From contig NW_006768794.1 in NCBI RefSeq assembly GCF_000204055.1, positions 62,001 to 126,000 on the forward strand: a stretch of DNA of 64,000 bases, given 5' to 3'. Numbering within the stretch: position 1 is the stretch's first letter; each line of letters starts with the position of its first letter. The stretch comes from Melampsora larici-populina 98AG31. Lineage: Eukaryota; Basidiomycota; Pucciniomycetes; Pucciniales; Melampsoraceae. Positions 163 to 28,514 of the stretch are shown here, piece by piece. The position numbers and the translations under genes were made by a program. The notes beneath the pieces were generated by a model. That model searched no databases and was not told where the DNA came from. It worked only from the letters and a program-made list of their open reading frames with translations.

Positions 163-1735
163 TCACATCCTTCTCCTTCTCCTAAAGTTCTTTAATGCCT
201 CCGGATATTTAGTCTTGAATGCTTCTACCAAATCTTTCGCGTTTTCTAAGTTGCTCCTTGGTTCCCATGAATCATGTTCTCTTCCGTATCCTGTCCAGCT
301 GATCAGATACTCTTCAATCCTCCCACGTAACCTTCCATCTAGCACTGCTTCTACTTTGTATTCTTCCTCACCATTTAATTCAATAGGTGGCGGCGGTGGT
401 TGCTTTCTTCCTTCTATGGTGTCCTTGTTGTATTGGCGTAATTTTGATATGTGAAATACCGGGTGTAATATGTGCATGCTGTGAGGCAATTCAAGTTTGT
501 AAGCTACTTCTGAAACACATTTGATTATTTTGAACGGTCCTAGCCATCTATGGTCCATCTTGGCGCTTGGTCTTGTCGTTGAGATGTTTTTACTACTTAG
601 CCACACCTTTGATCCTTCTTTCCAACTTGGTGTTTTCTTTCTGTTCTTGTCGTAAAAGTGTTTCATTGACTCCTGTGTTGCCTTCAGACTTTCTTTAATT
701 TCTTGTTGTACTTCTTGAATTTGTTGAACTCGCTCTTCTACCGCTGGTATACATTGATTCTGTGCTGGAGTTGTAGTATACGTCGGATTATAGCCGTAAT
801 TCGCCATGAATGGTGACACACCTGTAGAGCTATGCATACTATTATTATAAGCAAATTCAGCCATAGCCAAAAGGGGCTCCCAATCATCCTGTTTATAACT
901 TGTAAAATGACATAAATACCCTTCCACTACCTTATTCACGATTTCCGATTGTCCGTCAGTTTTGGGGTGGTACGCTGTTGAAGGTGTAGCCTTGATACCT
1001 AATTGTTCGTACAGAGAAGTAGTCAGCTGGGAGATAAAGATTCCACCGCGGTCTGATACTACCGTCTTTGGAGTTCCATGTAATCTCCATACGTGTCGTA
1101 ACATCAATTCGGCCAATTCCTCAGCTGACGTAGTGTTGTTGCACGGGATAAAATGTGCCATCTTTGTCAACCTGTCAACAACTGTCAATATGCAAGTCTT
1201 ACCGTTGGATTCAGGTAGTTCTGTGATAAGATTGTATGATATGTCTGTCCAGGGACCGGCCGGGATTGGGAGAGGTTTCAATTGACCAAATAATTTCTGA
1301 TTTGATGACTTGACCCGTTGACATGATTCACATCCATCAACATATCTATTAATGAATGACTTCATACCCTTCCAGTGGTAGTTTCTCTTCACTAAGTTCA
1401 AAGTTTTTGCACGGCCTGGGTGGCCAGCCATTGGGCTATCGTGCCTACTTTTTACTATCTCTGCTTTGATGCTGTTGTCCGCCGGTACTACCACACAACC
1501 TTTATGATATAATACTCCGTCTTCGACTGAATAGTCTTGCGTTAAGCTTTTCATCCTGATGGAAATTGGCTTTCTTACTGCTTGGACCATTTCACCAATA
1601 TAGGGATCTGTAGTTGATGTCTTTTGGATTCGATCTATGATTGTGGTATCAGACTCAATTGAATTGATTTCGCCATGACATAGGACGTCAGCCTCACTGC
1701 AAACATTAATAAACTTCCCCAAGTGGGCAGGAAAA
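163..1735 (-). pseudogene. Gypsy integrase plus chromodomain
   Basis: This is the 3' part of pol. Near the start is an HHCC-type zinc-binding region (CESCQRVK visible), followed by an integrase core with WTDISYNL, TVVDRLTKMAHF, VSDRGGIF and YHPKTDGQSE. These hold the D, D and E catalytic positions. A C-terminal chromodomain reads LISWTGYGREHDSWEP. Chromodomains of this type steer integration to chromatin marks in chromoviruses. The frame is open for about 520 codons, but it is cut off from the RNase H part by a 0.5-kb MITE and lacks its own start. Confidence 0.92.
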
Positions 1736-1742
1736 AATGATT

Positions 1743-2266
1743 GGGAGTATCATTTGTCATAAAATGATCTATCACTCCACACCTGATCCATAACACTCAC
1801 ACTACATATGTGTAGCAGGCTCAGTGAATTGGTGGTTATCATGTACATACAGTTCTGCTCAGTTATCTGCTCAGCAGGATGAGTTATTCATATGTAATAC
1901 ATGCTGTAACTTTTTTCAGATTGACAAAAGCATTCAAAAGATAGACTACATACACTGACTCAACGTTTTGGTGTAATCTCATCAACTCAACTGCATGTAA
2001 TACCCTTTCTGTTACTAAGAAATAGCCTCAAAAATATTGCCTGAGCAGCTACAGAATTATATGTAGTGAATTCTTGGGACAATTTTTTCCAAGTCAAAAA
2101 AGTTACATGTGGTATAACATGTGATTTATATAGTCTAATGGGCAAAAAACTGAGCAGACCTGTATGTACATGATAGAAAGCTATTTACTTAGTGTACTGC
2201 ACATATGTAGTGTGGGTGTTGAGGCTCAGGTGAGTGGTATTGGATCTTTTTATGACAAACTGTACT
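1743..2266. mobile_element. MITE, family A, copy 1
   Basis: Non-coding insertion of about 524 bp between the RNase H tail and integrase of the Gypsy element. The ends form an imperfect inverted repeat of about 30 bp; TTTGTCATAAAA and its reverse complement are visible near the two ends. A diverged copy lies at 13861-14395, a related core at 12760-13020, and a short piece near 10960. The exact ends and target-site duplication are not clear. Confidence 0.75.
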
Positions 2267-2267
2267 A

Positions 2268-4856
2268 TTAATTATTTTCCTCTTCCAATGTGGGGAAGTT
2301 GAATGATGTCCACAGTGCCTCGAACCACTCTTCCGCCTTTTTGTTCTCAATCATCTCGTCTTCGAACCATGCCTCTACACTGTCGATTTTGCTGATGAAT
2401 GTGTCTTCAACTATGTTTTCAGGTTTTAACATTTGTCCAAACGTGAGTTTTGTCTCCGTTGAGGGCGCCAAGTCTGGTCGTCAAGATAATGCATCTGGTC
2501 TCGTGGCTTCTCTTCCTGGTCTGAACCTTATCTGAAAATCAAAGCTACCTAGTGTTTCCGCCCATCTAGCCTATCTACGAGTGAGCTGCTTGCTTGTCAT
2601 GAAACTCTCGAGGTTTTTGTGGTCGGTATAGACAATTACGTCGAGGCGGTTGCGGTTGCCTTTGAGGTACTGTCTCCACTCTTTGAAAGTAGCCACAACT
2701 GCTAACAATTCTTTATCAAATATTTCGTAATTCTTTTCTGCAGCAATTAAGGATCGTGATAGATACGCTACTGGGTGTAGTAAACCGTCATCAGCAACTT
2801 GTGATAATACTGCTCCTAAAGCAAAATCTGAACAGTCACACTCCAGTACAAAGGGTTTGTATGGGTTAGCGATTCGGAGGATAGGTGCCGTAGTAAAAGA
2901 TTCCTTTAAATCTTCAAATGATTTGTTCCTTCTTTCGTTCCATTCGAATTTGACATCTTTACAGGTCAGCTTGTGTAGAGGTCTTGCTGTCTTTGAGAAT
3001 TGATTAATAAACCCTTGGTAAAAGTTAGCAAAACCTACAAACCGTTGTAGTTCCGTGACTGATTTTGGTGCGGGCCAATCCTTGACAGCTTTAACTTTAG
3101 CAGGGTCCATGCTGATCTTGTTTTTTGATATAATAAGTCCTAAATATTCGACTTCGTCTTTAGAAAACTCACATTTTTCAGGTTTAATCCATAATTGGTT
3201 TTTCTCTAAGATCTTCAGTATTTCTTTGACTACATCCTCATGATTGATTCCTAATTTTGTATATATCATAATGAAATCTAAGAATGCTCCAGTATCCTTT
3301 CCTATATGACCTAGCAAAATGTCTTGAATAAAGTACTGAAAATGTCCCGGAGCATCTGTTGGTCCGAAGGGCATTGTCAAGGGTGCAAATTGACCTGCTC
3401 TGCAAATAAAAGCTAATTTATCTTCGTCTTCTTCAGCTACTCTTAGGTTTCGGTAGGCGTTTCTCAGGTCTAGTTTAGTGAACTTTGTTGCATCCAATAA
3501 ACTGTCAACTAAGTCCATTGTGAGCGGAAGAGGATACTTATGTTTGACCGTCAAAGCATTCAGTTTCCTATAGTCGAAACAGGGCCTAAGTTTTCCGTCT
3601 TTCTTTCCTGTGAACAAGACCAGAGCTGCCCAAGGTGAGGTGGTGTGCCTTATTGTCTTATTAGCTAAACCTTCTTTGACCATCTCCTCCAATACATCAT
3701 TCTCGGCTGGTGACAGAGGTATTATCCTGCTTGCTTGTGGTACAGCACCAGGGACCAATTTAACTTTAAAGTCATATTTCCTACGAGGCGGAAGAGTCAT
3801 TGCCTTTGATTTCGTAAACAGGTGCAGGTATTTGTGGTAACGCGTGGGAACTAATTCATCCACAGTCTTTTCTTTCACCATTGTTTTTGCCTCGGCTGCA
3901 ATACGTGCTGACGTCGACCACGATGCTTTTGCTGTTGCTATTGAAGGGCTGCAGTTATCCTGTAAAGGTAAAAGCTTGCCAGCTGCTTCTTTAGACTTGG
4001 AAAGACTTTGCGTATCAAACTCACATTGTGGGGGCGTTAATGTACTCTTTTGAGCACACACCCCCTCATCATTTTGCCTAGCTTCCTCCCGTATCACCTC
4101 TCTCAGGTCTCTGGAAGGGTTTTTTGGTTCCAATGATGATGTGATATTGATTTCGTGGTCGTTTTCCTTCCTCTCCGTTGATTTCGTAGTCTTGGTGTCG
4201 TGGTGTGATCTAATTAAAGGGGCATCAAGCTTGCTAGCTGCTTCAACGTAATGGTTAGAGGTATGAGTATCAAACTCACATTGCGGGGGTGCTAAAGTAC
4301 CACTATGGATACACACCCCCTTGTCACAATTCTTAGCGTCCCCAACTACGGTCTCTTCCTTGACTTGGGGTGTTTTCAGATCGGACAAAACTGCTTCGAC
4401 AGCTGCGATGTCTTGACCTTCTTTAGAAGTTCTATTTTGCCAATCAATCTTATTACCATGCTTCTTGATCCACGGCATCCCTAGGATCGCATCATATGAG
4501 TCTTTAAGCTTAGTGATGATGAATCTTGAGGGCTCGGTGTCGTCGTCAATACACAATCTTGTGTCTTCAGTGATTCTTCTATTCTTTCCATCGAATCCTG
4601 AGACGTCTTTGGCTTTGGGCAGGGGGCTGGTTCTTATCTTATGCTTGCGAACGTAGTGCTCTCCTAATACTTCATGAGTAGCACCACAATCAATCAGGGC
4701 TTTGGCATCAGTTTTGGATGTGGGGCACGAGGGGTCAGACAATGTTATGGGGGAAAATAAACGTGGATCATTTGAATTGCAAATAAGTTTTCCTGCATCA
4801 ATCATAACCATGTCCTTCCTCTCGTCACTTCCGCTCGAGTGAGACACATCCATCAC
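2268..4856 (-). pseudogene. Gypsy protease, reverse transcriptase and RNase H
   Basis: The minus-strand reading has an aspartic protease region (ALIDCGATHEVLG, an altered DSGA-type site) and a reverse transcriptase with LRPCFDYRKLN and FTKLDLRNAYR. The catalytic box reads FLDFIMIY, where YVDDI/FLDDI is usual, so the second aspartate is missing. RNase H follows (VLECDCSDFALGAVLSQ, VYTDHKNLESF). The main frame ends at a TAG at 2571-2573 where CAG (Gln) is expected. The linker is still readable down to 2268 after another stop (TGA at 2481-2483, from CGA). Function is lost. Confidence 0.93.
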
Positions 4857-17280: not shown

Positions 17281-18837
17281 GCTGATGTGGATTCCAATTT
17301 GCCCCTCATCAGTTTTGATTTCTTGAATACATGATGTTGTATGACTAGATTGTTGTACGGCAATTACACTAAATAAAGAAATGAAGACCAGTCAGAAGGT
17401 CATAATTTAATGGGGCTGTGAATTCTTGAATACAAAGAGGGAAGAGATACTAAAGAGAAGTGATTAAGACACCCATGCATGATAATCACAGCTCTCTTAC
17501 AACAATTCCGGCCATGTGAATGAAACTTGTTAAGGTGATGATGTAGCGCGCTTTCACAACAGAAAATTGTGCCGCGACCATGACTTTAGGATTTTTCAAA
17601 CAAGGAATTGATGCCGAGATGAAGAATGCACCAACTAAGCCCTGTCTGAGGCAGCGGAATACATGCATGTGAGATGAACCTGATTGTTAAGTTTGATGGT
17701 TGGGTGTGATTGCACCTTAAAAAGAGACACTTTTGAAACTTGAAAGCTTTGAATTTATCAACTCAAGGCTACGGAAATGACTAAGCCTACTGAACCAGTA
17801 GGTTAGGTTTTTGAGATAATCTAAAATAAAATACGTATAAAATCGAGAACAACAGGTGAAATGTACGATCAAATATCAAAATCAAAGAACAACGTGCTGA
17901 TGATAGAACTACACAAGTATGGGTCAGGATTCAACCGTCATCCTGAAGACTCTATGATCATGAAGGAATGGATCCATCAGACTCTCAGTGTCTGATAATT
18001 TGCTTTCCACCTCCGCCTTTTCGAGGTCTTCTTCCTGCCATGGTCGAGCCTGTTCACGGAACTCAGGAAGGAACATCTTGGGGTTGATATCTTCCAATTC
18101 AACGCCCGAGATGGCTTTTTGACCTCTTGGTGGGGCAGTGGAGGTGAATCGCAAAGGCGAAAGAAGCTTGGAATCATGAATCGCTCGATAAGCTCCAGGT
18201 GGGATTCTAGGTTGACCAACACGGGAACGGATAGGATAGGCGGAGAAGGAGTGATGTAAACCTTGTTGCTCAAAGCTCTCAGGAGTGAGAAGGTTCTCAA
18301 TTGTAGGCGGAGTGTTGACCGACAAAGTCAACCTAGGAGTCTACATGAAAGAACTCTGATCGACTGCTCTCAGCGTCGCAAGCTGTGATTAGCCTTCGGG
18401 CTCAAGTCTGGGTAGCTACTCATTTTTCGTGTTGAAACTGGGAGCAACACCCTTCTTGGTGTTGATATCATACTCTTACAATTAGTAAAGAATACTCATA
18501 AAACAGAGACAAGCACTTGTTAAACAAAGGACTTTGTCATATTTTTTTAGTTTTCTTTGCAGTTCTTTTTTCAGTATACTAAGAAGAAGAGCGAGTACAA
18601 GTGCTGTGTGAGCTGGGCAATGATTGAGCTGCTCTGAGGGTCAGCAACTCCTGCTCAACCAGGATACGCGGTTTGCTTGGGCTGTTCCTGAGCAGCATGA
18701 AGGGGCATTTGGAACAAACTTTGACCAAACATGATACAAACTTTGGACAAACACAACACATCTAACCATCTCCACGTCGAGAAGGTCTACGGTGGACGCA
18801 GTGATTCCCAATGTTTCATTTTCATGTTCGTTGTTGA
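17281..18837. other. Intergenic; two doubtful minus-strand open frames
   Basis: A minus-strand frame at 17924-18331 (about 135 codons, no ATG near its start) is acidic at its C-terminal end and of unknown family. Another at 17486-17668 starts with ATG and has a hydrophobic segment (GLVGAFFISASIPC); it also follows a good 3' splice sequence. They could be exons of one small gene, but I cannot join them. No function is proposed. Confidence 0.3.
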
Positions 18838-18838
18838 A

Positions 18839-18846
18839 GATATATG
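18839..18846 (+). promoter_or_regulatory. TATA-like sequence of left arm
   Basis: GATATATG lies 33-40 bp before position 18879, the point where the intronless second copy of the module begins. That spacing is what a TATA element and its transcription start would show. Confidence 0.5.
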
Positions 18847-18878
18847 TTGTTCCCCAGCTACTCTGACTCTCTTTCCTC

Positions 18879-19202
18879 ATCTTTCGGAAAGAGAGTAAGT
18901 CCGTTATCATCTTTTCTCACGCGTTCACAAATACTAATCATGTGGTACTACTAGAATCCGTTTAGATCATTATCACAAGCTCGTAGCTTATTAACTTTTT
19001 CTCATTACTATCATTCCTCCTACACTTAGGTACTTCATCTTACAATTTCCATTTAGAACTCAAATATCGTCTAACTTAGTTCTTACCATTTATATCTTTT
19101 TCTACCTTCTGTTACTCTCTGTTTCGTGTGTAGGTTAGTGCCAGTGTCAGCATACACTTGGATTGGGAGAAGAGGTGCTTATATAGCGCATCTATTTGTC
19201 AG
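18879..19202 (+). repeat. Intron-bearing E1-E2-E3 module
   Basis: E1 end 18879-18894; intron A 18895-18954 (60 bp, GTAAGT...CTAG, with branch-like ATACTAAT); E2 18955-19029 (75 bp); intron B 19030-19133 (104 bp, GTACTT...GTAG, with TCTAAC); E3 19134-19202 (69 bp). The intron limits are defined by comparison with the copy at 19226-19454, which lacks exactly these segments. Probably an untranslated leader rather than coding sequence. Confidence 0.85.
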
Positions 19203-19225
19203 GTTGGTTAGAAATGAATACTTTT

Positions 19226-19454
19226 ATCTTTCGGAAAGAGAAATCCGTTTAGATCATTATCACAAGCTCGTAGCTTATTAACTTTTTCTCATTACTATCA
19301 TTCCTCCTACACTTAGGTTAGTGCCAGTGTCAGCATACACTTGGATTGGGAGAAGAGGTGCTTATATAGCGCATCTATTTGTCAGGTTAGTGCCAGTGTC
19401 AGCATACACTTGGATTGGGAGAAGAGGTGCTTATATAGCGCATCTATTTGTCAG
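19226..19454 (+). repeat. Intronless (spliced) copy of module, with E3 doubled
   Basis: 16 nt of E1 (19226-19241), then E2 (19242-19316, identical over 75 nt), E3 (19317-19385) and a further E3 (19386-19454), all fused at the exact splice junctions. A 23-bp spacer separates it from the first module. The three E3 copies are identical over 69 bp. Confidence 0.9.
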
Positions 19455-19819
19455 GTTGTAGAAGTCTTCTCAGACATTTACAGAACTGGGCAGTGGAGGT
19501 TTGCACTACTATGGAATTTATTGAGGAGCAAACAGAGAAATAAGCAATAGCCAGAAATCTATCAAAAGAGGGTAGAAAGGTGATACATTTATTTCACGGC
19601 ATCAAAATTCAAAAATCAAGAAGTTGTGATCTTTGAAGAAATGGAATGAGCTCACAGTGGATTGGTAGCAATTTTATCAGGGTGACTAAGTAAAGGGGCT
19701 ATTTTATTCTAATATGGGTTCACTGGATTTTGGAAGAAAATAACAATTGGTTACTTAAATTTAGATATGGTGTAATTCAATGATCTCTTTCAGGCTTGAT
19801 CACAGACGTGGTATTTATA

Positions 19820-20087: not shown

Positions 20088-20409
20088 TACCTTTTTCTCC
20101 TTGCCGCTTAGTTGGTGGGTACTAACCAAGTACATACTCTCCTGATCTTGGTGTGGTATCCTCTGGGCTGGGTTCTCTTATCAGTAATGTATAAATTACT
20201 GTTCATTTCACTTGTTTGCTTCATGACTAATTTATCTATGTAACCAATGTTTATGTGTTTCTCTTATTGATCTTCTCTTGGTGGATAAGGAAATTCCTAT
20301 CACTTATTCATTCCTCCTTTAGCTAAAGGATTTCATTTACATTCTGTTTGTCTTAGTGTTTTCTTATGACAACCTTTTATATAAGAATTGATAGAATGTT
20401 CTCATTGTA

Positions 20410-20660
20410 AATGTCTAAGAAGACGTTTAACCTGATAACAGCAGTGCATACGTGATCACTCTTGTCCAAGGCAAAGGTATACAGACTTTGGTACTAACCT
20501 AGTTAATGTAGGAATAATATAAAAGTGAGAAAATAATGGTTCAATAAGCAATGTGCTTGAGTAGATATGATCTAAGCGGATTCTAATAGTGTTATAACAT
20601 TAGTATATCTAAGTATTGTGAAAGGTATGAAATCACTTACTCTCTTTCCAAAAGATGGGA
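20410..20660 (-). repeat. Right-arm E1-E2-E3 module, no intron B
   Basis: Read on the minus strand: GGAAAGAGA, then GTAAGTGATT...CTATTAG as an intron A equivalent with ATACTAAT, then E2 (AATCCGCTTAGATCAT...), passing directly into E3 (GTTAGTACC...TTATCAG) with no intron between them. Much diverged from the left arm. Confidence 0.7.
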
Positions 20661-20988
20661 AAGAGAGAAAGAAAAGAGGAGAAAGGACAAGAACATATAT
20701 CAATATTGATTAGATAGAAATCTGTTGGGATTGATGTACATCATAGTCGAGTTGGGGTTGATCTCACAATAATCAATCATAGACAATAAAAAGAGAAATG
20801 AAACATAACCACAATAACACATTATCACAACTATACTTTTAAAGAACTACATTATAAGATACTTGAACACCATAACCTCTAAGCTGTCTTAATTGTATCT
20901 TGACACTTATTAACTGCGGGAGTTTCCCATTACTAGTCTATTCCCTATATGCTAGTATGAGTGATGAGAAAGAACGAACTCGAGTTCG

Positions 20989-21730
20989 GGTATTCACTAT
21001 ACCATGTTGTTAGGTATTATGTATTATGTACGTTATGTGTTACGTCTGTTTTCATTCAGGAGTTTTAGATGTCAAGGACTTCAGCTCGAGGTCATTTGAT
21101 TTCAAGTTGAAGAGAATTCAGTGGAAATTTACTTACAAATGTAGTGATGATTGGTAATGATTGGTGGTCATGGTCTGAGTCCGGTGTGCTTTTCTTTTCT
21201 TTTTGGGAATAGGTCGCTTGTGACCTGCGACTATTACGTTTATGATCTCTTATGTGTGTGTTCATTATATATATATCTAAAGACTTGTTTTGCTCAATTT
21301 CTTTCCTCATCGGAAAGAAATTGTAAGTGTTTCTTTGTACACTATCATCTAGCTCAGATTAACAAACTAACTGCTTACTGTGCCCACTAGTTATTATCTC
21401 TTACTTATAACTGTTTCCGCTCGATTCTCTTTTGAATCTGTCCTGTTGCACTGTGTACAGGTTTGTTCTGATTTCTCTATTTTCTGTTTTTCTCTATCTA
21501 CTTACTGATTTCTGTGTGTGTCAGGTGTGTTGATTATTCGTAGCTTTCTAGCTCGTGGCTTGTTGCCTTGTTTTACTTACACTGCACCTGATACCCCAGG
21601 TTAGTAATCAAATCATCGGAAAGAAATTTTATTATCTCTTACTTATAACTGTTTCCGCTCGATTCTCTTTTGAATCTGTCCTGTTGCACTGTGCACAGGT
21701 GTGTTGATTATTCGTAGCTTTCTAGCTCGT
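20989..21730 (+). repeat. Left inverted arm with spliced second module
   Basis: The arm holds intron A 21323-21390 (GTAAGT...ACTAG, branch-like AAACTAAC), E2 21391-21460 (70 bp), intron B 21461-21524 (GTTTGT...GTCAG) and E3 21525-21599 (75 bp). A 13-bp spacer follows. Then comes a second copy without introns: E1 end 21613-21628, E2 21629-21698, and E3 21699-21730 cut off at the Copia pol junction. Compared with the right arm it has several C-to-T type changes at CpG. Confidence 0.9.
21266..21276 (+). promoter_or_regulatory. TATA box in left arm
   Basis: TATATATATAT ends 31 bp before 21307, the first base shared with the intronless copy. The right arm has the equivalent at 27918-27928. Confidence 0.65.
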
Positions 21731-24700
21731 ATAAGCTGACGAAGATAGTAGAACTGTTTGCGTCCCAAAGGTTTAGTAAGTAGATCCGCCATCATTTCAG
21801 ACGTAGGGCAGTGTTTGACTACAAGAGCTCCTTGCTTCACCACTTCCCGGATCCAATGGTATTGGATCTCAATATGCTTGGTTCGAGCATGAAAAATTGA
21901 CTTAGTTGTTAAGTGGATAGCACCCATATTGTCACTTCTCAATTCAGTTGGATTCGGATCCTCGAAACCAAAAATAGTCAGCATGCCTCGCAGCCAGACC
22001 AGCTCTTGTCCAGCCTCCGTGATGGCGCGGTACTCTGTTTCCGTTGATGATAACGCAACGGTTGGTTGTAGCCTTGATTTCCATGAGATAGGGCCCCCAG
22101 CCAACTGAAATATGTAACCCGTGGTAGAACGCCTCGACTCGCGATCACCAGCCCAATCCGAGTCGCAATGAGATACCGGTAAGTTAAAGCTTTGCATACC
22201 ATTAATTGCGGTAGAGGAGGATACGTCGCCGTTGTAGGAGATACCCAAATTCATAGTTCCACTAAGATAACGAAAAATGTGAATGACTGCGTCCCAATGC
22301 TTTCGGGCAGGGTGATCGAGATGTTGCGACAGAACCCCAACCGCGTATGTTAGGTCAGGACGTGTACATTGAGCCAAGTACATTAAAGATCCTACCGCGC
22401 TCCAATAGTTCAGGTTCTCAAGCTGAAAAACTTCAACCTCTTCGTCACTGGCCTTGTATAACTTGAGACCTGCAGGAAAAGGTGTTGAAGCAGGTTTCAA
22501 ATTGATCAAGTCAAACCGTTCAAGAACAGCACGAGCCAGGGCTGATTGAGTTAAAGTGTAGCACAAGGATGATTGATGAATGATTTGTATCCCAACAACA
22601 GTAGTGGCCACCCCTAAATCTTCCATTTCCCACTTCTTGCTGATCTCCGATTTGAAGTTAATAATGTCATTTCCTGTAATTGCTAAATCATCTACGTGAG
22701 CGTATACTGCAGTAAACACAGTGTCTTTAGACCGAGTGTATATGCAAGGGTCAATGGGACATTGCATAAACTCTATGCTGACGAGAAATGACACCACATC
22801 ATCATACCAGATTTTAGGAGACTGTCTCAGACCATACAGGGCTCTCTTCAATCAACACACCTTCCCTTTGGATCCTCGTGAAAACCCTTCAGGCTGATAC
22901 ATATAGACTTCTTCGTCCAAGGTGCCATTGAGGAAGGCTGTAACCACGTCCCTCTGGTGAATTTCCCAGCCTTGGATTGCAGCTATTGCTATGAGAAGTC
23001 CAAGCGAGGATGGTTTGCCTGTTGGCGAGAATGTTTCGTGAAAATCAACGCCCTCTTGTTGCATATTACCCATGACAACAAATCGGGCCTTGAATTTAGA
23101 CACAGTGCCATCCAAGTTGAATTTCTTGCGAAAAAGCCAGAACCTGCGTAGTATGTTCTTTCCTTTCGGCGGTTCGACAAGCTCCCAAACTTCCTTACTG
23201 GTAAGTGAATCAAATTCCTTCTGACAGGCTTGACACCACATGTCACCTTCAGGACCGTTGATAGCAAACTTGTAGGACTCAGGTACCGGTACGTCGATGG
23301 TTGATGAAGAGAAAGCTTCTGCCAGGATGTCAAAAGCAGAGACATAAGTACAGTTTGCAAGGTACACGTGGCCCCCCATTCCTCTGTAGTTGACATTTTC
23401 CTTGACACGAGTTGACTGTTGAATAGGTATGGTCGCTTGAGGTGGTGTATCGTCGTTGGATGATAACACCGGAGTCAAAGCATTGATAGGAGATGTGGAA
23501 GAAGGTTCAGGTACTGGGGGAAGATCATCCCCGTCACTGTCTCCATCATTGTCGAGCAGAATGTTGAAACGGTTTGGCGTTTCTACGGATAGAGGTACTT
23601 TTTCAGATTTGAAGTTCAGAGGAAGAGATGTTGTTGATGGTGACTTCATATTTAGCATAAATGGGAATACGGATTCACAAAAAGACACATTGTGAGTTAG
23701 CGTGATCTTTCTAGAGTCTAAGTCGTAAATGTGATAATTAAAGTTGTCATCTTGAAAACCAATCAGAACACCTTCTGTTGTGAGTGCGGAATATTTGCTA
23801 GACCTTTGTTCTTTTCTGATAAGAACATGAGCCTGACACCCAAATACCCTGAGATGCTCCACACTAGGTTTTCAAAAATACCAGATTTTGAAAGGAGTCT
23901 TCCCACTTGGAAGAGCTGATGTGACTGTTCGATTGGTGATGAATACACACTACAAGAAACATAACATTTTCTGGGCAGAAAATTAAATTATCTGTATACA
24001 AAAATCTGGAAAGGTCAGAAACAGAGCAAAAAATATGAAAAAATATGCATCCTGTTCCTTGGTTTGAGATCTCCAATCTGCATATTTTTCCGTATTTTTA
24101 GGGTTCATATTGGTCAGTGTACTAACAATAAACCCTCATAATCATCAGATTACCACCTGTAACAGATGCTGGAATTTGGCTGAGCAGTGCTGAGAGAAAA
24201 TTTTGATTACTACAAAACCCCATAACTTTGTCAATTATGACTCAAAACACTCGATTTTGAGTGCATTGGAAAGCTGGTATTTGCCTTAAGGTAGTTCATA
24301 AATGGAGCAAATACGTTGCGGGCCTTCAAAGAAAGATATCCCCAATGAAATTGAATTTCACATATCATCAAATAGAATGTCAGTCATTTGGATTACACAT
24401 TGTGTGTCGCAATGAGAGTTGTAGTTCAGGAATTCAGCTTTCTAATGCACCTCAAATCAAGTGTTTTGAGCCAGAATTGACAAAGTTATGGGGTTTTATA
24501 GTAATCAAAACTTTCTCTCAGCACTGATCAGCCAAATTTCATCATCCGTTACAGGTGGTAATCTGATGATTATGAGGGTGTATTGTGAGTACACTCACCA
24601 ATATGAACCCTAAAAATACGGAAAAATATGCAGATTGGAGATCTCAAACCAAGGAACAGGATGCATATTTTTTTATATTTTTCGCTCTGATTCTGACCTT

Positions 24701-27201
24701 TCCAGATTTTTGTATACAAATAATTTAATTTTCTGACCAGAAAATGTTATGTTTCTTGTAGTGACAGCTGTCGCACATGCTTCGTACCAGAAGCTAAGCG
24801 GAACACCTGACTGAGTCATTAAGGATCTCGCACGAGTGGTTATGGTTTGGTTACCTCTTTCTGCCACTCCGTTTTGTTCAGGGGTATGACTAGCGGTAAA
24901 ATGAAGCACAATACCCGTGTCTTCACAGAAACCTTGCATTATCGAGTTTACAAATTCGCTTCCTTGGTCCATAGTGAATTGAATCAAGTGGCGACCAGTT
25001 TGTCGTTCAGCTAATGCTATATATTTGACAAAAACGTTGAAAACTGATTCTTTGGTTTTATTGCAGAGTGGAAATATGTGACGAAAAGATGAAAAGTCAT
25101 CCGTGAATAAGACATAATAAGATTCATTATGGATACCCATGACACGATTAATGCCACTCAGGTCCACATGGACATTCTGAAGAAAAGTAGTTGAACAAGG
25201 TCGAGAGCCGGAAAAAGGTAACTTCTTAGATTTTGACATAGTACAAACAGGACATGACGAATTAGAGGAAGGAAACCCAGTGAACAACCCATCCACACTT
25301 CCATGTTTAGCCATTTCGTTAAGATACTTGTGGCTCACATGACCTAGTCGTTGATGTTGCAGACGACAAGAGTGAGATTGAGTGTTGTTGATATGCTGAG
25401 ATGAGATGAGTGAACTCACAGGTTCTAGGGCGATGAGCATAAGATTCCCGGAAAATGCACTGTTGAAAAGAGCACATTGTCCCATCACTAAACTGAAACA
25501 TTCAGGGTCTGATGAATTGATTAACGTGACCACCCCCTTCTTTAGCAAAGCACCTCCAGCAATTAGATTTCGGCTAAGTTCCAGAACGTATAGACAGTCG
25601 GCCAGAGTAAAGACTGTACCATCACCAGCTCTTAACTTAACAGACCCGGTGGAATGAACAGCTAGCGACGCATTACCTCCTGCCAAACGAAGTTGTTTGT
25701 TGGAGTCTTCAAGTGTTTTAACAGTAGCAGCATCAAATAAACTCATGTCGTTAAACATGTGGTGTGATGCACCGGTGTCGTTCAAGGCCCATAGACCATC
25801 CGTGGGGATAGTTGAGGAAGCCGACGCATCAAGATCGACTAGCTCAGATCCTTGAGCAGTAGGGTGATTGTCGTCAGACTGAAGGGAACTAACAACTCTA
25901 CCTGATGGTTGAGGGTACACAAAATTTGGATCGAGCTGAGCGTGTATATATGCCGAAGATACATCCATCACTGAGATCACATCCGTAGATACTGAAGGTT
26001 GAGGATTGACAATAGGTGTATTCGAGATTGGTTTTAATTTGATGAAGAACGTCATAGCATGACTAGCTGAAGCTGCGGGTGGTCGTACTATCTTCACACC
26101 TCTAACTGAGTTAGCTGATTCTGCACTGTTTGATTGATGATGATTGCGTCTCTTGAAACGTTTCTTGTTCTCGTCTTGTTTCTGCATCCATTCGTCTCGT
26201 TTGGCGAAATTAGCCGGTTGCTTGAAGCACTGATCAGGTTTGTGTGGGTTTTGGAAAGTGTTACCTACACACCGATCAATAGTGCACCTGGTCAGGTGAC
26301 TTGGACCAGCATGATAGTGAGAAGTATGATGAGTAGATTGTATTAAAGAAGGAGAAGTGTAAGATTGTTCCTCTTCAGACATCAATAATTCATGTTTGAC
26401 CTTTTCTAAAGTAAGCGGCTTAATGACACGATATATAATTTGTATGGTTACTTCGTAACCTGGTTTAAGACTTTTTATCAACGTTCTAGCTTCTTGAGAT
26501 GTATCCATGTCACCACCGTACTTCTTAAATTCGCGAAGTATGGATGAGAATTTGTCGATATGAACTTTCAAGGAATCAGACCGAAGTTGAGACATGGAGT
26601 GAAGAGCATTCTCGATATGCTTGAGCTTAGCCTCAGAGATGCTGGCGTGATAAGAGTTTAAATGTGTCCAAAGTAGGAAAGGATCGTAATTGATAGTCAT
26701 GATCTTAGTGACTGGGTCTCTGACTGTTAACTCGTCTCGAGCTCTTTCGCCGTTGATGCCATCGCACTTGCTTGAAATCCAAGTAGTAAGGATGAATCTA
26801 ATCTTCTTATGTTTCTCCTCGGTTAACGTAGTATCTTTAAAATCCTTTAGATCCAGATAAGATTCGTATCCAAGGGATTCAATAGCTTTGTGAATCAACA
26901 AATTCCAGTGGTTGAAATTTTCATCAGTAAGTTCGTTTTTTATGACAAACTTGCTAAGAGCATTGGTAGTACGTTGTATGAAGAGTTGTAGAGGTGACAA
27001 AGCCTCAACAGAAGAGTGATTGGTTGACATAGCAGCAGAAAGAGATTTAGAAGGCGAGAAAAGTGTTTTAGGGGATAACAAGAGAGGTTTTAAACCAGTC
27101 GATTTTCTAACGGTGTCTGTTGATTTGTACGATCCTTCTGATCCGGAAGAAACTGATTCGGTGTCTGTAGGAGTATCAGGGTCTTTGTCGTTGGGTTGCA
27201 T
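21731..27201 (-). pseudogene. Copia gag-pol, interrupted
   Basis: The first ATG after the right arm is at 27201 (MQPNDKDPD). The order is gag, a protease region (GLWALNDTGASHHMF), GAG-pre-integrase (HQRLGHVSHKYLNEMA), an integrase core (FTMDQGSEF, HTPEQNGVAERG), reverse transcriptase (KFKARFVVMG, YAHVDDLAI with the DD pair, MKRALYGLRQSP) and RNase H (ADLLTKPLGRKQFYYLRQL). Stops at 22852-22854 and 23872-23874 (TGA for CGA) and an 816-bp CACTA-like insertion kill it. The pol tail runs straight into the left arm, with no polypurine tract or normal 3' LTR. Confidence 0.93.
23948..24763. mobile_element. CACTA-like palindromic element, 3-bp TSD
   Basis: Both ends read CACTACAAGAAACATAACAT inward and are flanked by the direct duplication ACA (23945-23947 and 24764-24766). 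Almost the whole 816 bp is an inverted repeat with arms of some 370 bp. CACTA ends and a 3-bp target duplication are hallmarks of the CACTA/En-Spm superfamily. No transposase is present, so it is non-autonomous. Taking it out restores the Copia pol frame. Confidence 0.9.
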
Positions 27202-27345
27202 ACAAGTTGTAGAAGTAGTTGATCGTCGGAGATTTGAGTAGTGTTGAATAAATTCAAGACTCTTGCTACCATGAGAAAGAACGAACTCGAGTTCGAAAGC
27301 AAGCTTTAAAGCTTCAAGGCTTTTGTCGGTTTGAATAAAGAACAC

Positions 27346-28205
27346 CTGGGGTATCAGGTGCAGTGTAAGTAAAACACGGCAACAAGCCACGAGCTAGAAA
27401 GCTACGAATAATCAACACACCTGGGGTATCAGGTGCAGTGTAAGTAAAACACGGCAACAAGCCACGAGCTAGAAAGCTACAAATAATCAACACACCTGTG
27501 CACAGTGCAACAGGACAGATTCAAAAGAGAATCGAGCGGAAACAGTTATAAGTAAGAGATAATAAAATTTCTTTCCGATGATTTGATTACTAACCTGGGG
27601 TATCAGGTGCAGTGTAAGTAAAACACGGCAACAAGCCACGAGCTAGAAAGCTACGAATAATCAACACACCTGACACACACAGAAATCAGTAAGTAGATAG
27701 AGAAAAACAGAAAATAGAGAAATCAGAACAAACCTGTGCACAGTGCAACAGGACAGATTCAAAAGAGAATCGAGCGGAAACAGTTATAAGTAAGAGATAA
27801 TAACTAGTGGGCACAGTAAGCAGTTAGTTTGTTAATCTGAGCTAGATGATAGTGTACGAAGAAACACTTACAATTTCTTTCCGATGAGGAAAGAAATTGA
27901 GCGAAACAAGTCTTTAGATATATATATAATGAACACACACATAAGAGATCATAAACGTAATAGTCGCAGGTCACAAGCGACCTATTCCCAAAAAGAAAAG
28001 AAAAGCACACCGGACTCAGACCATGACCACCAATCATTACCAATCATCACTACATTCGTAAGTAAATTTCCACTGAATTCTCTTCAACTTGAAATCAAAT
28101 GACCTCGAGCTGAAGTCCTTGACATCTAAACCTCCTGAATGAAAACAGACGTAACACATAACGTACATAATACATAATACCTAACAACGTGGTATAGTGA
28201 ATACC
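27346..28205 (-). repeat. Right inverted arm with spliced module and E3 doubled
   Basis: Read on the minus strand from 28205: TATA at 27918-27928, E1, intron A 27804-27871, E2 27734-27803, intron B 27670-27733, E3 27595-27669, spacer 27582-27594. The spliced copy follows: E1 end 27566-27581, E2 27496-27565, E3 27421-27495, and a further E3 27346-27420 that abuts the gag leader. Same layout as 18879-19454 but a different sequence family. Confidence 0.92.
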
Positions 28206-28514
28206 ACGACAAGTGATTATTTCTTTTAGTGAACTTGTGATCCTAATTCAATGAGGTGTTTGTCAGCCCTGAGCCCTGTGTACAGGACCATGGGCTAACA
28301 AACACACATGTAAATATAGTGAACTTGTACAAAAGCATAGTGATCACACCTCATGGCTCAGTATTAAAAGTCACTTAAATAAAAAGAGTTACTATGACCT
28401 AACTAGTAATATTAAACCTAACCCAAACCTGACTCAAAAGAGAAGCAAACCTAAGCACCAACCACAAGTTGATGCCAAGATCTGGAATATATATACTCCT
28501 CTTCTTCCCACTTA

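Follow-up and report, generated by a model that had tools for sequence, protein, structure and literature searches.

The feature at 18879-19454 in the window studied here (a 64-kb stretch of DNA, bases 62001-126000 of contig C30, from a 98.3-Mb genome of 243 contigs) was found to hold two modules built of the same three exons, the first with two introns and the second an intron-free copy, inside the LTR of a Ty1/copia retrotransposon. Comparison of this LTR with its relatives suggests that the feature is probably the R part of the LTR and that the second module is the R used in strand transfer, which would be rewritten in each cycle from spliced RNA. The 18.8-kb locus and a pair of arms at 21-28 kb had originally been predicted to represent two families sharing this layout; both are Ty1/copia LTRs, unrecognised there as such, and not free-standing loci. 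The replication of the element itself can supply the mechanism behind the layout, a point absent from that prediction.

A base-by-base reading of the plus strand gave the order E1-iA-E2-iB-E3, a 23-bp spacer, then E1-E2-E3-E3. The first module consists of E1a (18879-18894, with the putative RNA 5' end at 18879), intron A (iA; 18895-18954, 60 nt, GTAAGT..CTAG), E2a (18955-19029, 75 nt), intron B (iB; 19030-19133, 104 nt, GTACTT..GTAG) and E3a (19134-19202, 69 nt), both introns being of the GT..AG type. After the 23-nt spacer (19203-19225) follows the intron-free module (19226-19454), made up of E1b (19226-19241), E2b (19242-19316), E3b (19317-19385) and E3c (19386-19454), all on the same strand. 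The copies are identical for E2 (75/75) and for all three E3 (69/69); on these identities, and on the layout to the base, the original prediction was exact, and E1 is identical as well (16/16). The spacer starts GTTGGT, which may be the donor of a third intron (iC) running to the end of E2b or E3b.

These segments lie in the 3' part of a family-B copia LTR (18801..19482, plus strand), which was read against L028, L026 and L027. Its 5' end is truncated near 18801 as judged by eye, and its 3' end, ..GACATTTACA, is at 19482, with no primer-binding site after it. Around the presumed transcription start there is a hairpin at 18863..18899 on the plus strand (inverted repeat; locus L089) with arms at 18863-18876 and 18886-18899 and the loop TCATCTTTC, its 3' arm being formed by E1 and the first donor bases of intron A. 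In L028 (C3:1239000-1245500), a close relative of the window LTR, the 5' LTR consists of the intron-containing module only and the truncated 3' LTR ends E3-E3.

The second family predicted at 21-28 kb is real, with arms at 20989-21730 and 27464-28205 that are 99% complementary. They belong to a family-A copia element whose 5' LTR (27272..28211, minus strand; L055) reads U3, hairpin/E1 (27885), iA, E2, iB, E3, spacer, E1-E2-E3-E3, U5, and whose primer-binding site TGGTAGCAAGAG begins at 27271. Several ORFs at 21643..27390 on the minus strand (Retrotran_gag_2, gag_pre-integrs, rve, SH3, RVT_2) encode gag and an integrase upstream of the RVT_2 reverse transcriptase, which is the copia order. In the 3' LTR (20965..21730, plus strand) the body (20989-21730) lies inverted and is cut within an E3; the last 24 nt of the LTR (20965-20988), namely the palindrome CGAACTCGAGTTCG plus TTCTTTCTCA, keep the orientation of the element. 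A TCACT site duplication is intact around the element (20960-20964 and 28212-28216, minus-strand reading). The 3' LTR is thus an internal inversion with an intact site duplication, which perhaps arose in reverse transcription or by self-integration. An element bounded by inverted arms, with 20989-21730 and 27464-28205 as terminal inverted repeats, was considered and rejected; the LTRs of relatives are direct. Reading 18.8-20.9 kb as one element with inverted arms was likewise rejected, this region holding two different family-B LTRs. The other of these is a solo LTR (20406..20905, minus strand; layout and ends by eye) of the form E1-iA-E2-E3, without intron B and without a second module, flanked by ATAAG and ATGAG.

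By the features tested the element is a member of Ty1/copia with a new LTR plan. Relatives were found in a genome search as same-direction pairs about 5.1-5.7 kb apart, and the direct LTRs within L021, L022, L024, L026 and L027 are 99.3-99.8% alike, start TG (TGTCG) and end CA. A primer-binding site, TGGTAGCGAGAG, adjoins the CA of the 5' LTR in L021, L026 and L027 and is one base off in L022, L024 and the window element; it is presumed to match an initiator tRNA. In full elements a purine-rich tract, GAGGGGG, lies before the 3' LTR, and GAGGGGGCG or GAGGGGGTG precedes TGTCG. Site duplications of 5 bp, identified by eye, were TACAA in L021, GCTCT in L022, AGCTC in L023, CGTAT in L024, AAGAT in L026, AATTT in L027, AGATT in L028 and TCACT in the window element. 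The elements thus resemble Ty1 (Ty1/copia, Pseudoviridae) in their gag, in the placing of integrase before reverse transcriptase (Retrotran_gag_2, rve, RVT_2), in the TG..CA LTR, and in the 5-bp site duplication, the primer-binding site (TGGTAGCG..) and the purine tract. They differ in having introns in the presumed R, a spliced copy behind these introns and a hairpin across the putative start. The DNA after this start holds both the intron-bearing and the intron-free copies, and the ends assigned to R are putative.

The layout of the 18.8-kb feature is not due to chance, as it recurs in 31 of 60 loci selected by hairpin and in seven of nine elements chosen by polymerase. Hairpin patterns located 46 family-A and 50 family-B places in the genome (2 and 0 with the patterns reversed), and 60 of these 96 places were examined by self-comparison and spliced alignment. 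In the 31 loci with two modules, to which two-module LTRs from outside the hairpin list (L026, L030, L031, L035 and others) were not added, module 2 corresponds to module 1 minus its introns with few mismatches. Spliced alignment of these LTRs gave 53 introns, of which 51 are GT..AG, a type that the aligner prefers wherever the placing of a border is uncertain by a few bases. The spacer of two-module LTRs, among both the hairpin- and the polymerase-selected loci, mostly starts GTTAGT directly after ..CAG, and tandem E3 copies are common in them; from this donor-like sequence and the tandem E3 together a third intron was deduced. It should also be noted that L029 (C30:140000-144500), a family-B LTR, has about 500 bp inserted in the spacer between its modules, the insert itself containing a repeated stretch.

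The remaining 29 loci comprised 15 with other or unclear layouts and 14 without an E2/E3 match, which were left unclassified. The other layouts were called by matching the loci against a set of exon and intron sequences, with intron A deduced in several loci from the gap between E1 and E2. On this basis E1-iA-E2-iB-E3 stands alone in L058, L065, L067, L087 and L093; intron B is missing, giving E1-iA-E2-E3(-E3), in L041, L059, L060, L070, L082, L090 and L091 (the last two being the LTRs of one element); L085 is E1-E2-iB-E3; L044 is a deleted two-module LTR; and L088 is unclassified in these counts. Intron A is missing from two groups of two-module LTRs on the tree, L042/L061/L072 and L052/L064, the latter placed beside L066, which appears to have intron A to judge from its E1-E2 gap. 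It is also missing from L035 and L085, which are off the tree and match L061 and L072 best. Intron B without intron A was confined to these two groups of the tree, L035 and L085; intron A, whose donor lies in the hairpin or next to it, occurs without intron B in seven hairpin-selected loci and in L103, L104, L105, L107, L110 and L111. This excess of intron A-only over intron B-only LTRs would fit a protection of the intron-A donor, but it would also fit chance of descent.

Other differences were seen within single elements. L025 (C6:387000-395500), a full element, has an intron-free E1-E2-E3-E3 in both LTRs and keeps a 9-bp hairpin with other letters. The LTRs of one element differ by one E3 in L022, L027 and L095/L096, those of L022 and L027 being otherwise more than 99% alike; the number of E3 copies thus changes fast, likely in reverse transcription. 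In L023 (C8) the 3' LTR has a stretch, running from a point ahead of the hairpin as far as the beginning of E3, that is missing from the 5' LTR, where the junction is one base off a GT..AG splice.

To avoid the bias of selection by hairpin, nine elements were chosen by their polymerase only, picked to span the range of identity and not at random, and the 5' LTR of each was read. Their polymerase fragments are 31-47% identical to that of the window element. A second module was present in seven of the nine (C21, C26, C15, C49, C64, C69 and C7), all with an intron after E1, and spliced alignment of these seven LTRs gave 10 introns, all 10 GT..AG. Single modules were found in C19 (E1-iA-E2-E3-E3) and C55 (E1-iA-E2-E3), the intron of both being placed by eye from motifs. 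Compared by eye, modules from distant clades share no sequence, yet they follow the same plan. The window's two families are only two among several that occur in the genome. Insertions of complete elements are known that have no module 2 (L105, L110, L027 and the 5' LTR of L028) or no introns (L025), and hence neither module 2 nor the introns are essential. In the clade of L104 and L103, E3 starts GTAAGG right after CTGCAG, and each E2/E3 border has the appearance of an acceptor and a donor together (a recursive splice site).

The two modules of an LTR were found to evolve together. E2 copies within one LTR differ at 33 of 2084 sites (28 LTRs; the within-LTR totals leave out L066, L073 and L074), and the median identity of E2 between loci is 0.74 (378 pairs, second LTRs included). 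A tree was built with both modules of each of 18 family-A loci (without family B, the second LTRs of pairs, L050, L073 and L074). In it the modules of an LTR group together or within their subfamily, and there are 17 changes of module label. A constraint uniting the module-1 rows in a single clade, with three sets of identical rows left free, cost 934 log units (AU p 6.8e-45). Over all 153 locus pairs, which are non-independent, 6234 differences are common to both modules, and 363 and 424 are confined to module 1 and to module 2, respectively. Among closely related pairs the common differences number 22 (vs 3 and 4 in one module only) for L056/L078, 11 (vs 1 and 2) for L052/L064 and 33 (vs 2 and 0) for L042/L072; L045/L063, L042/L061 and L046/L051 show 0 common differences, these pairs being too close.

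Since the modules of one LTR group together and share the differences of their lineage, these comparisons reject a single inherited duplication without renewal. The original prediction had named one ancestral duplication with equal divergence of the modules as the outcome that would speak against it, and the opposite was found. Its view that the layout points to a mechanism rather than an accident is supported by this renewal, which is seen both in the trees and in the site counts. It had further proposed an independent origin, or an independent renewal, of the layout in two families. Renewal is borne out by the 33 of 2084 differences within LTRs against the identity of 0.74 between loci, and independent origins neither find support nor are needed, as the layout spans distantly related copia lineages; this spread makes one old origin with constant renewal appear the simpler reading. 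The E3 copies within an LTR differ about equally (E3a-E3b 20, E3a-E3c 16 and E3b-E3c 15 of 1487 sites), so that the prediction of the last E3 as the oldest copy, which would follow if it were only inherited, failed. Some further process, for example repeat slippage, would be needed to account for its turnover.

In 28 of the 29 LTRs with an aligned E1 (two of the 31 two-module LTRs are without one), the first base of module 2 is the loop A of the E1 hairpin, or lies at most 3 nt upstream of this A where the spacer has the same letters as E1. A TATA-like match starts at -44 to -34 relative to this A in 40 of 48 loci. The stem of the hairpin covaries, with five pairs changed on both sides (12 cells) and none of 500 shuffles as high in cells or in score; the inner six pairs belonged to the search pattern, and the covarying changes are in the outer pairs. 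Hairpins persist in lineages without intron A (L042, L052 and L064), and other clades have hairpins with other letters, L109 having no clear hairpin across the start.

Folding suggested that the 5' arm of the hairpin may close the donor of intron A. The cost of opening the donor was 9.6-9.7 kcal/mol with the 5' arm vs 3.7-5.5 without it, being higher with the arm in 22-23 of 25 LTRs, and in 18 of the 25 it exceeded that of all 30 shuffled upstream stretches. One such comparison gave 9.7 vs 5.0 kcal/mol, the cost being higher with the arm in 22 of the 25. The mean unpaired probability of the donor GT, however, had the opposite sign (0.07 in the 5' RNA and 0.31 in the 3' LTR; n=15, p 0.006), and opening energy was chosen as a measure after this result had been seen. 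Unpaired probability was computed for 15 LTRs and opening energy for 25, nine having been added from other elements together with one more family-A LTR. There was no masking of the donor in L080, L098 and L109, and almost none in L103 in one setting. When the 3' LTR was folded, E1b was the more open of the two E1 copies in 18 of 21 cases.

From the features established in the DNA, namely the LTR context, the spliced copies, the concerted evolution, the spread over clades, the conserved hairpin and the TATA spacing, we infer the simplest cycle that would remake this LTR, with its RNA ends, poly(A), splicing in the cell, site of strand transfer and role for the hairpin. Its RNA would start at the loop A of the E1 hairpin (ATCGG.., ATCTTTCGG..), and the capped 5' end would be without the 5' arm of the hairpin, leaving the intron-A donor free. 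The leader would be spliced to E1-E2-E3 and then, with removal of the third intron (beginning at the spacer and finishing with E2b or E3b), to a later E3. In the 3' LTR the same RNA would contain the whole hairpin, so that the donor would be closed and this copy stay unspliced. The strong-stop cDNA of the spliced end (E1-E2-E3-E3-U5) would pair uncleanly with module 1 and match module 2, where it would land and be extended upstream through the spacer, E3, iB, E2, iA, E1 and U3. The remade LTR would then read U3, E1-iA-E2-iB-E3, spacer, E1-E2-E3-E3, with module 1 retaining its introns. If the cDNA landed instead on the E2 or E3 of that module, layouts without intron B or without module 2 would result; introns would be lost if it landed on E1 or if the 3' LTR were spliced. 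The variant layouts (seven loci with E1-iA-E2-E3(-E3), five with E1-iA-E2-iB-E3 and the intron-free L025) fit such other landing sites. The renewed intron-free copy may therefore be the way in which the element keeps introns that would otherwise be lost. It is also possible, though somewhat less likely than not, that a whole set of copia lineages uses a two-state RNA switch, spliced at the 5' end and closed by the hairpin at the 3' end, with the cDNA aimed at an intron-free R rewritten in every cycle; carrying spliceosomal introns in R through RNA in this way would be an undescribed mode of replication.

Other routes to this layout were considered. If R had been duplicated once, long ago, by a spliced cDNA and its modules then kept uniform by gene conversion at the DNA level, the modules would also group by locus and the E3 copies of one LTR would be equally similar. 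Conversion is two-way, however, and should often erase the introns of module 1 or seed them in module 2, whereas a module 2 with an intron occurs in 0 of the 31 plus 7 aligned LTRs; the one-way asymmetry that is observed comes free with the RNA route. In addition, the LTR pairs that are 99.3-99.8% alike (L021, L022, L024, L026 and L027) are recent insertions with little time for conversion, and this history is considered unlikely. Improbable too is a series of accidents in which a spliced strong-stop cDNA was joined without homology to the RNA 3' end at the poly(A) site, giving a layout without any role. Such joining would account for a spacer that is short and AT-rich in many LTRs and ends where the RNA 3' end could lie, and for single-module relatives beside double-module ones (L093 vs the window LTR). 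Within subfamilies (for example L046, L051 and L079), however, spacer and junction are inherited nearly unchanged, so that the junction is not made anew, and the layout is present in seven of the nine polymerase-chosen elements.

The variable presence of introns A and B among lineages would also be expected if a plain tandem duplication came first and introns later entered module 1. This is very unlikely, since introns would have had to insert at exon borders in module 1 and never in module 2, and to do so in several clades between which the modules cannot be aligned; it also leaves the start of module 2 at a TATA-spaced A unexplained. An artefact of assembly or library, such as cDNA chimeras, in favour of which nothing was found, is barely credible given tens of distinct loci with different flanks, with site duplications where these were checked and with the layout in both LTRs of single elements. 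Rewriting of module 2 from spliced RNA is thus the reading that is preferred here.

Retroelements copied through RNA are expected to lose introns. In these elements introns persist in the presumed R, the region of strand transfer and seemingly the most delicate part of the LTR, in many lineages and beside a spliced copy that evolves with them. If the proposed cycle is true, it would be a new answer to the question of how an RNA-copied element retains introns, the DNA of the LTR would preserve a natural record of both splicing and strand transfer, legible without any RNA, and it would become directly testable why one RNA sequence is spliced differently in its 5' and its 3' copy.

We know of no other LTR with introns in R, a spliced copy behind them and a hairpin at the start, and a search of the open-access literature, outside which most subscription papers lie, brought up no article describing intron-bearing LTRs that also contain a spliced copy. 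Deltaretroviruses and foamy viruses have a splice donor in R, and resemble the present elements in having a splice signal inside a long R; to our knowledge it is a donor only, with neither a whole intron in R nor an intron-free second R. Penelope-like elements keep introns through retrotransposition, but they differ from the copia elements described here in their enzymes and mechanism and have no LTR strand transfer.

The R of HTLV-1 is up to about 250 nt long (PMC12789967), and BARE1/BARE2 of barley, which are likewise copia-type, have RNA that is partly spliced, with a junction at the end of gag and not in the LTR (PMC3735527). The spliced RNA of BARE is argued to be excluded from reverse transcription, and no copies of it could be amplified from barley DNA (PMC3735527); unlike this, spliced RNA seems here to be the template of the strong-stop cDNA. 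In a study on HIV-1, proviruses with asymmetric LTRs were ascribed to template switching, and the differences in E3 number between LTRs may arise likewise; the HIV-1 cases described there are large deletions without an intron logic, unlike those found here (PMC9278108).

Scans of the 64-kb window for tRNA and Rfam families gave no match. A Ty3/gypsy element with a chromodomain was identified at 163-4856 on the minus strand (integrase, Tf2-1-like SH3, Chromo, RT/RNase H). At 23948-24763, inverted repeats of 329 bp (94%) flank 158 nt, forming a short foldback insertion between the coding blocks of the copia element.
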